A program made the translations under genes and the position numbers. DNA of 64,000 nt from Bacteroidota bacterium (GTDB lineage Bacteria > Bacteroidota > Bacteroidia > Chitinophagales > LD1). Under the pieces are notes generated by a model. It did no database searches. It was not told the origin of the DNA and saw only the letters and a list, made by a program, of their open reading frames with translations. Numbering within the stretch: position 1 is the first letter of the stretch; every line of letters starts with the position of its first letter. This document shows, piece by piece, positions 48,373 through 50,476 of this stretch. The stretch lies in assembly GCA_018267365.1 (NCBI GenBank), contig JAFDYQ010000017.1, positions 18,664 through 82,663 on the forward strand, read 5' to 3'.

Positions 48373-49215
48373 ATGGTCGAAAGAGACCTTCAATTGCTAA
48401 TTGGAATAATTGAGGGCATTTCCTGTGATAAAAAAATTACAGAGGATGAAGACAATGGACTTTTTGAATGGATTAAGTCTAAGCAAAGTTATCAATACAA
48501 AGAACCATATAAGGGTATCTACGCTGTTATCATGGAATCCTTAGCAGATGGCATACTTACTCTTGAGGAAAGTCAGAATATAATTTGGCATTGTAAACAG
48601 TACGTTCAGAAAGATAATTACTACAATGAACTTACATCAGGACTGCAAAGACTATACGGTATAGTTAAAGGCATTTCTATTGATAGAGAAGTTACTATTG
48701 AAGAAATCGAGTACCTGACAAAATGGATGGATAAACATACTCGCTTAAAAGGTTCCTGGCCTTTTGATGAGTTGTACAACCTTGTCATTAGGATGGTTCA
48801 AGATAAGCAGATTACTCATGACGAACAAAAGGAATTCCTAGCTTTTTATAATGCCTTTATCAACGACTCTCCGGATTCCTCTAGTGCTGATATGGTGGAA
48901 GCCTTACAAGGCGGTTACTGCCAGATTGACCCCGAAATAAAGGTTGCAGAAAACACCTTTTGCATAACAGGTATTTCCAGCCGCTACAAAAGGAAAGAAA
49001 TAGCAGAACGCATTGAGCTCTTTGGCGGTTATGTTTCGAACACTCTTACTTCCAAAGTAAATTATTTGGTCGTTTGCGACGAAAAAAATGCTTGCTGGGC
49101 GTTCACCTGCTATGGACGAAAGGTAGAGCAAGCAATCAACTGGAGAAAGAAAGGCGTTAGCATGGCAATCGTTCACGAATTTGACTTGTACGACGCATTT
49201 GAGGATTTAGTTTAG
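48373..49215 (+). CDS. BRCT-domain protein with two N-terminal helical repeats
   Basis: A 280-residue protein. Residues ~185-275 form a BRCT domain: ENTFCITGIS, AERIELFGGYVSNTLTSKVNYLVV and a closing AINWRKKG...IVHEFDLYDAF, as in DNA ligase and RFC1. Residues ~5-160 are a tandem helical repeat; the two halves align (LIGIIEGISCDKKITEDE with LYGIVKGISIDREVTIEE). BRCT domains recognise DNA ends or phosphopeptides, so a DNA-repair or replication role is inferred. The gene is conspicuously A/T-rich and its codons differ from those around it, pointing to horizontal acquisition. Confidence 0.78.
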   Translation: MVERDLQLLIGIIEGISCDKKITEDEDNGLFEWIKSKQSYQYKEPYKGIYAVIMESLADGILTLEESQNIIWHCKQYVQKDNYYNELTSGLQRLYGIVKGISIDREVTIEEIEYLTKWMDKHTRLKGSWPFDELYNLVIRMVQDKQITHDEQKEFLAFYNAFINDSPDSSSADMVEALQGGYCQIDPEIKVAENTFCITGISSRYKRKEIAERIELFGGYVSNTLTSKVNYLVVCDEKNACWAFTCYGRKVEQAINWRKKGVSMAIVHEFDLYDAFEDLV

Positions 49216-49231: not shown

Positions 49232-49975
49232 CTAAGCTACTTTTGCTTTCAGCATCTCCGCCAGCACCACCCGCACCTCATCCAGAGAGTGGTACAGCTG
49301 CTCAAAGCTTTCTACTATAAAGTAAGTATCCTGCATGATATCATTCCTGTATGGCGTGGCCATGATGGTACGCACATCGTAGTCCTTTCTGGTGCAGTCG
49401 CCCACCATGCAGTGCAGTGTCTCGCCCCTGCTGCTCATGATGCCTGCACCATAGATCCGCAGCGATCCATCTGCCTGCCGCATCAGCCCAAACTCTATCG
49501 TAAACCAGTAGAACCGCCCGATCAGCTCCAGCGCCTCCTCATCATCGGCATGCTCCATAGCCAGCTCGCCCAGTCCGGTGAGGAAGCGGCAGTAGTCCGG
49601 ATCACTCAGCAGCGGTATGTGCGCGAAGACATCGTGAAACATATCCGGCTCCTCTATATAGTCCAGCTGCGCCATGGTCCGCACCCAGCAGGTAGCCGTG
49701 AAGCGCCGCTCTGCCAGAAAGCCGAAGAACTCCCGCGCCGGGCTGATGCACGGCACCACATGGATGCCCCAGCCAGTGCGCGCCGCCAGTATCGCATTCA
49801 CCTTGGCAAAGTCAGGTATCGCAGCACCGTTAAACTCTACCGTATCTACGGCGCGCAGGTACGCATCACAGGCATACTGCCGCAGCTGCGGCATCTGCCG
49901 CTCATAGAGTGTCTTCCATACCAGAAAGTCCTCTGCCGTGTAGTCACTATAGATCTGTTGTGTCGGTCGTTTCAT
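49232..49975 (-). CDS. phhA: Phenylalanine 4-monooxygenase
   Basis: A 247-residue pterin-dependent aromatic amino acid hydroxylase of the short bacterial type. Iron ligands are the two His in PDMFHDVFAHIPLL and the Glu in FYWFTIEFGLM. Pterin and substrate loops WGIHVVPC and RFTATCWVR are present. It converts L-Phe to L-Tyr with O2 and tetrahydropterin. The usual bacterial partner, pterin-4a-carbinolamine dehydratase, is not in the window. Just upstream lies a Tyr-rich leader frame with an intrinsic terminator, so expression is probably set by tyrosine supply. Confidence 0.95.
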   Translation of the reverse strand: MKRPTQQIYSDYTAEDFLVWKTLYERQMPQLRQYACDAYLRAVDTVEFNGAAIPDFAKVNAILAARTGWGIHVVPCISPAREFFGFLAERRFTATCWVRTMAQLDYIEEPDMFHDVFAHIPLLSDPDYCRFLTGLGELAMEHADDEEALELIGRFYWFTIEFGLMRQADGSLRIYGAGIMSSRGETLHCMVGDCTRKDYDVRTIMATPYRNDIMQDTYFIVESFEQLYHSLDEVRVVLAEMLKAKVA

Positions 49976-49993
49976 TGTATTTCATTTTTACGT

Positions 49994-50024
49994 AAAAAAA
50001 ATGCCGCTCTCTGAGAGGGCGGCA
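49994..50024 (-). terminator. Attenuator terminator in the phhA leader
   Basis: On the minus strand TGCCGC (50024-50019) pairs with GCGGCA (50007-50002), extended inward by three pairs after one C-A mismatch, and is followed by an uninterrupted run of eight T (50001-49994). It ends 18 nt before the phhA ATG, so it would stop transcription before the gene unless disrupted. Its 5' arm contains CCGCC, complementary to GGCGG in the leader frame. Confidence 0.85.
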
Positions 50025-50058
50025 CCGTTGGTTATATCCTTTGAGTATCACTCAGTCA

Positions 50059-50124
50059 TTACCACACGCGTCCGCCGGAGCAGCCGTTGTAATAGTAATA
50101 ATATGAGCGACCAATAAATTTCAT
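50059..50124 (-). CDS. Tyr-rich leader peptide of phhA
   Basis: Too short for usual gene finding. From the ATG at 50124 it encodes 21 residues: MKFIGRS, then five Tyr codons in a row (TAT TAT TAC TAT TAC, 50103-50089), then NGCSGGRVW and TAA. It ends 34 nt before the attenuator hairpin. Ribosome stalling at the Tyr codons would leave GGCGG (50076-50072, the Gly-Gly codons) free to pair with CCGCC (50022-50018) and block the terminator; completed translation covers it. A -7-like TGGATTTG lies 32 nt upstream. Confidence 0.8.
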   Translation of the reverse strand: MKFIGRSYYYYYNGCSGGRVW

Positions 50125-50156
50125 ATCCTGAATATAGCAAGGCCTTTTAAAAATTG

Positions 50157-50164
50157 CAAATCCA
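50157..50164 (-). promoter_or_regulatory. Candidate -7 box for the phhA leader transcript
   Basis: Minus strand TGGATTTG, one base from TAnnTTTG, 32 nt before the leader-peptide ATG. No clear -33 TTG. Confidence 0.35.
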
Positions 50165-50298: not shown

Positions 50299-50349
50299 CT
50301 CTCTCCTGATTTAGGAGAGGGAAGATGCCGAAAGGCAGATGGGTGTGGT
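50299..50349. repeat. Palindromic intergenic repeat, copy A
   Basis: CTCTCCT (50301-50307) and AGGAGAG (50313-50319) form a hairpin, followed by GATGCCGAAAGGCAG and GGGTGTGG. The same arrangement recurs at 60351-60403 and in part at 60258-60310 and 63911-63940, so it is a dispersed REP-like element. Confidence 0.75.
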
Positions 50350-50375: not shown

Positions 50376-50476
50376 TCACCCCGTCACACGTCACCTCGTC
50401 CCCCGTCACACGTCGTCCTTCCCTCTATCACCCCGTCCCTCGTCCCCCGTCACCTCATCACCCACGTCACCCCGTC
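50376..50476. repeat. Degenerate CCCCGTCA-type short tandem repeat, locus 1
   Basis: Interrupted copies of CCCCGTCAC, CCTCGTC and CACGTCAC. The same units occur as a clean array at 55418-55488. Confidence 0.7.

Follow-up and report, generated by a model that had tools for sequence, protein, structure and literature searches.

We analysed a 64,000-nt stretch of DNA, referred to here as the window, from a Bacteroidota bacterium (LD1, Chitinophagales; assembly GCA_018267365.1, contig JAFDYQ010000017.1, positions 18,664-82,663 of the forward strand). On its minus strand, at 49975-49232, lies phhA, encoding a phenylalanine 4-monooxygenase of 247 amino acids. The protein belongs to the family described by profile NF008877 (261.1 bits, cut-off 247) and scores 246.5 bits with TIGR01267, below the cut-off of 264.75. 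The upstream gene is divergent and the downstream gene convergent, both on the opposite strand, and phhA therefore probably has its own transcript. The convergent frame (48373-49215, plus strand) encodes a 280-aa protein that weakly matches the terminal part of the NAD-dependent DNA ligase profile, the matched part probably being a BRCT domain. On the other side, between the phhA promoter and the divergent gene, there is a G-rich degenerate tandem repeat (50376-50476, units of 7-30 nt). The sequence CATCTGCCTTTCGGCATCTTCCC occurs once in the window, at 50319-50341, and a near reverse complement of it is found between terminator and phhA in a genus mate (G006, locus L005); it may be a dispersed intergenic repeat.

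A preliminary description of this DNA had placed upstream of phhA a frame of 21 codons, five successive ones of which specify Tyr, followed by a hairpin and a run of T, and had read the arrangement as a tyrosine-sensing attenuator. The frame, MKFIGRSYYYYYNGCSGGRVW, indeed runs from ATG to TAA at 50124-50059 on the minus strand and encodes 21 amino acids, of which codons 8-12 (50103-50089; TAT TAT TAC TAT TAC) are the Tyr run and the predicted site of ribosome stalling. We count 33 nt from the stop codon to a 25-nt hairpin, rather than the 34 nt given before, the difference depending on where the stem is taken to start. The terminator hairpin (50026-49998, with its 5′ arm GGTGCCGCCC at 50026-50017) and the U tract of eight T (50001-49994) are as described, and the phhA ATG follows 18 nt further on, at 49975. 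The 36-nt hairpin stretch has a folding energy of -15.4 kcal/mol (z -4.57; none of 200 shuffles equally stable), and the whole 195-nt leader folds modestly better than shuffled sequences (z -1.52; 9 of 200 equally stable). Hairpin and eight T, which recur in relatives, are predicted to form an intrinsic terminator between leader frame and gene; a simple promoter and terminator scanner run on the window listed no terminator here, the stem having a mismatch. An ordinary terminator of the upstream gene is ruled out because that gene is divergent, and there is no incoming transcript to end.

The predicted promoter (50160-50129) comprises TTTG (50160-50157), a 20-nt spacer and the -7 box TATATTCA (50136-50129), with four bases between TATATTCA and the leader ATG; the simple scanner likewise reported a promoter-like site at 50160-50131. 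With related Algoriphagus leaders counted singly, 30 of 56 leaders have a TAnnTT box whose end lies precisely 6 nt upstream of the start codon of the leader; the background between 31 and 110 nt upstream is 0.4 per position. In F. psychrophilum the TAnnTTTG box lies at -12 to -5 (PMC9723704), a spacing that would make the A of the leader AUG the first transcribed base, and we predict the start at A50124. Leaderless mRNAs amount to 5.5% in F. psychrophilum (PMC9723704), and 5′ UTRs shorter than 10 nt to about 3.7% in B. thetaiotaomicron (PMC7366714).

Five consecutive TAY codons occur once in the window, as against none in 100 shuffles, and at four sites in the 4.6 Mb genome. We scanned for frames of 12-32 codons with at least three Tyr in seven codons and a stable hairpin plus T run within about 50 nt. 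On both strands of the window the phhA leader locus alone matches (as two overlapping frames), and it is also the only one of the four genomic sites to pass; the other three, with no mini-ORF plus hairpin, are rejected as Tyr leaders. Applied to loci L071-L163 (943,128 strand-bases), the scan returned 34 frames, every one within 400 nt upstream of phhA. Since most of these loci were fetched for holding phhA, this means that the combination is absent elsewhere in them, and implies nothing about its genome-wide frequency.

Leaders upstream of phhA in related genomes

Our sample of 198 related genomes contained 77 with a PhhA match. Ten of these were not read upstream, the match being weak, distant or at a contig end, leaving 67 genomes with 70 phhA copies. 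A Tyr-rich mini-ORF followed by a hairpin precedes phhA in 24 of the 67, the remaining 43 having none. The 24 are the window genome, six genus mates, eight further members of family f1, three genomes of f5, one each of f11 and f20, and four of f21, so that leader and hairpin are present in at least five families. A Tyr-rich ORF with no hairpin (L068) was excluded from the 24, and leaders may have been missed where the upstream sequence was short (L022, L047, L069, and L093 with only 56 nt). Tyr runs with terminator-like hairpins thus do stand before orthologous phhA genes; their absence there would, by the preliminary description, have refuted its reading. Its placement of the relatives in Chitinophagaceae probably fails, as a relative with an Edaphocola-like leader lies in f20 and the window in f1, which puts the latter probably outside Chitinophagaceae itself.

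Among 80 named loci, 43 carry a leader when the His/Tyr-mixed form is included: 30 have a Tyr leader plus hairpin (nine of them repeating first-set genomes), 12 a His/Tyr leader plus hairpin, and one more (L158) came from a wider scan, which was also alone in detecting the hairpin of L089. Carriers include Edaphocola aurantiacus, Roseivirga ehrenbergii, R. seohaensis, Cesiribacter sp. SM1, Rhodocytophaga aerolata, Echinicola salinicaeni and Litoribacter ruber. Within Echinicola the leader is found in 10 of 11 genomes reached via the E. salinicaeni locus, E. vietnamensis not necessarily being among them.

Across the leaders Tyr is encoded by 74 TAT and 34 TAC codons; the use of both suggests that the amino acid is kept and not the letters. 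Outside the run the peptide varies between lineages, and the run itself spans three to six Tyr, at times interrupted (for example YYNYY, YYPAYY and YYRY). What is conserved is a short frame with a run of codons for the amino acid presumed to be sensed, as in known attenuators.

Pairing between leader and terminator

The GGCGG just behind the Tyr run had been noted as complementary to CCGCC in the 5′ arm of the hairpin, and this match is present, with GGCGG at 50076-50072. It forms part of the predicted antiterminator arm CGGCGGACGCG (50077-50067), which begins 11-12 nt past the last Tyr codon. Compared with shuffled segments, single duplexes reach p < 0.05 in only 5 of 24 leaders, and the window's own pairing is no better than shuffles (p 0.25). 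The case for the arm is a comparative one.

Many leaders have, behind the Tyr run, a sequence that looks like the 3′ arm of their own terminator (GGCGG, GGAACGG, GAGCGG, GGAAAGGG, AGGAATAGG). We slid a 12-nt segment along the leaders and compared its pairing energy with the leader's own terminator arm to that with the arms of other groups. In a first set of 24 leaders in 13 groups, the own arm gains 2.0, 3.4 and 2.5 kcal/mol at +9, +12 and +15 (positions in nt counted from the last Tyr codon), winning in 13, 12 and 11 of the 13 groups, respectively, whereas at other positions its mean gain ranges from -0.55 to +0.61 kcal/mol. A second set (32 leaders, 17 groups) gave a weaker peak at the same place, with gains of 1.1, 1.5 and 1.65 kcal/mol at +6, +9 and +12 and the own arm winning in 12, 13 and 11 of 17 groups; at 0 and +3 the values are -0.8 to -0.9 kcal/mol, the own arm being ahead in 9 and 7 groups. 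The groups in both sets were made by eye, as were the 24 first-set terminator arms. For L010 the script picked another hairpin, and the hand-set arm was later matched by a scan hit on L089. In the second set the last codon of the run was set by hand, and L145 and L158 were excluded from the 32 leaders.

Most leaders have the start of their best duplex 8-16 nt behind the run, namely 22 of 24 in the first set (L017 and L019 have it at 0) and 28 of 32 in the second (L138, L114, L149 and L151 have it at 3-5), and this distance holds whether the stop codon is near or far. Such a fixed distance would fit a ribosome that, stalled on the run, just uncovers the arm. The proposed GGCGG/CCGCC antiterminator is thereby strengthened by comparison: a predicted pairing that would exclude the terminator shows co-variation from lineage to lineage and keeps a fixed spacing to the Tyr run, the window taken alone giving p 0.25.

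Folding of the leaders around a masked ribosome, its size assumed from known footprints, agrees with such a switch in one form and largely not in the other. In full-length equilibrium folds the terminator is kept in 19 of 24 leaders with the ribosome stalled at the first Tyr codon and in 23 of 24 with it at the last, so that 5 and 1 leaders, respectively, switch; the window is one of the five (terminator 0.02, arm 0.64). With that result known, we chose to fold also transcripts ended after the 5′ arm of the terminator, and report both. In these truncated folds, pairing of the arm to the leader is higher with a stalled ribosome than with one at the stop codon in 23 of 24 leaders, at 0.98 for the first Tyr, 0.92 for the last, 0.28 for the stop and 0.41 with no ribosome, although in three groups pairing remains high with the ribosome at the stop (0.66, 0.98 and 0.99). 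The corresponding values for the window are 0.97, 0.98, 0.69 and 0.08. Its 0.69 reflects a weak duplex with an upstream segment (+2 to +8) that the mask does not cover; with no ribosome its leader folds on itself. The truncated and full-length folds could be reconciled if the choice were kinetic and fell before synthesis of the 3′ arm.

Tyrosine supply in genomes with the leader

The window genome (97% complete) has no recognisable TyrA domain, and neither TyrA (PF02153) nor prephenate dehydratase (PF00800) was matched in the 30 genomes of its family, itself included. PhhA is therefore the one tyrosine route recognised here, and its phenylalanine would come from uptake or from an enzyme that was not recognised. 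The genome does have chorismate synthase, pterin dehydratase, HPPD and TGT. The preliminary description had cast PhhA as a tyrosine-supply enzyme and not a part of catabolism; the supply role is favoured by the lack of a TyrA match, and HPPD makes tyrosine breakdown possible alongside. The PhhA match, with neither TyrA nor prephenate dehydratase found, points to a gene that supplies the amino acid predicted to be sensed.

Among the genomes with phhA, TyrA is found in 0 of 24 with the leader versus 17 of 43 without it (Fisher p 0.0002, ignoring relatedness and with some incomplete genomes counted); 26 of the 43 leaderless genomes also have no TyrA match. Bacterial PhhA is usually described as catabolic (PMC7311316, PMC1173090). 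It has been described as a tyrosine-making enzyme in Dyella, Legionella and Echinicola, and in E. vietnamensis, which has PAH and TyrA, mutant fitness supports tyrosine synthesis by PAH (PMC7311316).

In the window genome phhA is on contig C8 and is not adjacent to the strong HPPD match listed, which is on C55. Four leaderless genomes (G046, G103, G109 and G194) have phhA within about 4 kb of an HPPD match, which suggests a catabolic setting; two leader-bearing genomes (G062 and G095) also have an HPPD match within 3 kb. Ten genomes of the window's family (G007, G010-G014, G016, G018, G019 and G029) show neither PhhA nor TyrA, and leader-bearing G033 (98% complete) has no match for chorismate synthase or TGT.

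Predicted attenuation of phhA and its place among known systems

From the sequence and its comparison among relatives, we consider it highly probable that the region upstream of phhA is a ribosome-mediated attenuator that raises phhA expression when charged tRNA-Tyr is scarce, PhhA likely being the source of tyrosine for the cell; both the observation and the reading of the preliminary description are thus upheld. The component parts, their conserved order, the usual spacing of 8-16 nt and the pairing that co-varies by lineage are all seen in the comparison. The transcript would have the leader AUG at its very 5′ end, and the ribosome would load on this leaderless end. This is, to our knowledge, a phylum without Shine-Dalgarno initiation. 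With tyrosine present, the ribosome would translate past the Tyr run and, close to the stop codon, sit over the arm, leaving the terminator to form. When tyrosine is scarce, translation would halt within the Tyr run. The arm begins at about the point where ribosome cover ends; once free, it would pair with the 5′ arm of the terminator as this emerges, and the polymerase would read into phhA. With no ribosome, the window leader is expected to fold on itself and the terminator to form.

The twelve named Cyclobacteriaceae-type leaders mix His and Tyr, some having a single Tyr. Those of Algoriphagus type (L105, L106, L116-L118, L122, L123, L125, L127, L133 and L134) share MNPTPRT(F/Y)VHHS, after which His and Tyr interchange, whilst hairpin and arm are kept. 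We searched for TyrA in the genomes of 50 of the 80 named loci, leaving out L117, which gave 49 genomes. Every one of the 11 genomes with a His-rich leader gave a match over the cut-off, as did 5 of 21 carrying a Tyr-type leader and 11 of 17 leaderless ones. All five TyrA-positive Tyr-type leaders have His within or beside the run, and TyrA is found in 0 of 10 with no His in the run; the Tyr-only form thus goes with absence of TyrA, and the His-rich form does not. Tyrosine alone does not explain the His-rich Cyclobacteriaceae leaders. These leaders are what lends some weight to an improbable reading, namely that the element responds not to tyrosine charging alone, but to histidine and tyrosine jointly or to a property common to the tRNAs that read NAY codons (Tyr, His, Asn, Asp), for example queuosine modification; with TyrA in all 11 genomes searched, tyrosine shortage is a less obvious signal there. 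The run in the window, however, is purely Tyr, and the leaders of its lineage vary in everything but the Tyr codons. As for queuosine, G033 carries a YYYYY leader and has no TGT match, which indicates that queuosine is not needed there.

The same parts would also be required by a Tyr-rich arrest peptide that, like TnaC, stalls the ribosome by its own sequence and senses free tyrosine or phenylalanine. Such a peptide is very unlikely here, given that the sequence beyond the Tyr run is unconserved between lineages and that the run ranges in length between three and six Tyr and can be interrupted. Least credible of all is an ordinary catabolic phhA beside a chance Tyr-rich ORF and an unrelated terminator, which would accord with the HPPD in the genome and with the usual description of bacterial PhhA (PMC7311316, PMC1173090), but leaves unexplained a terminator behind a divergent gene, the recurrence of run, hairpin and arm in at least five families, the lack of a TyrA match and the location of phhA and the listed strong HPPD match on different contigs.

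Extending tyrosine-sensing attenuation beyond the window is a more tentative step, and one on which we are close to evenly divided, leaning slightly against: that across Bacteroidota phhA is under leaderless tRNA-Tyr leader-peptide attenuators with the arm at the edge of the stalled ribosome, that the Cyclobacteriaceae version reads tRNA-Tyr and tRNA-His together, and that a phenylalanine-breakdown enzyme has become a regulated tyrosine source, as in animals. A direct test is possible, since the isolates Edaphocola aurantiacus, Roseivirga ehrenbergii and Echinicola salinicaeni carry the leader. If our reading is true, the range of leader-peptide attenuation would be extended to tyrosine (as far as open-licence literature shows), a sequence mark could tell tyrosine-supplying from catabolic PhhA, and attenuation would act on an mRNA predicted to start at its AUG, in a phylum with few leaderless mRNAs.

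That PhhA can be a tyrosine source is already known. Our search, mostly limited to open-licence literature, found no paper describing an attenuator with Tyr codons or any attenuation of phhA, in keeping with the preliminary statement that no tyrosine attenuator was known on a phenylalanine hydroxylase gene; as far as that literature shows, four things are new, namely the amino acid involved, the target gene, the predicted leaderless start and the mixed His/Tyr form. The PhhA of Dyella, Legionella and Echinicola is the same enzyme with the same proposed role, and the excerpts of PMC7311316 describe no regulatory element for it. Pseudomonas phhABC also encodes this enzyme, but is a catabolic operon with a sigma-54 promoter and the protein activator PhhR (PMC1173090). 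Putative attenuators of tyrA operons, including that of Bacteroides thetaiotaomicron (PMC1173090, Table 7), are likewise hairpin-based predictions on tyrosine pathway genes; they precede tyrA and not phhA, and no Tyr-codon leader is described for them in the excerpts of that source.

Tyrosine T-box riboswitches also sense the charging of tRNA-Tyr through transcription termination, but they bind the tRNA and have no leader peptide; a T-box is rejected here on structure, an Rfam search of the window at gathering scores having matched no family. Phenylalanine, threonine and histidine are placed under attenuators, and tyrosine under T-boxes, in PMC1262725. The closest likeness is to the leader-peptide attenuators of the trp, his, thr, ilv, leu and phe operons and of pheST, which have a short ORF with a run of codons for the regulating amino acid, a competing antiterminator and intrinsic terminator, and a gene supplying the amino acid sensed. 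The phhA leader differs from these in that it is predicted to sense tyrosine and to control phhA, to start at its AUG with no 5′ UTR, and to hold its arm at a set spacing from the Tyr codons that depends only in part on the stop codon.
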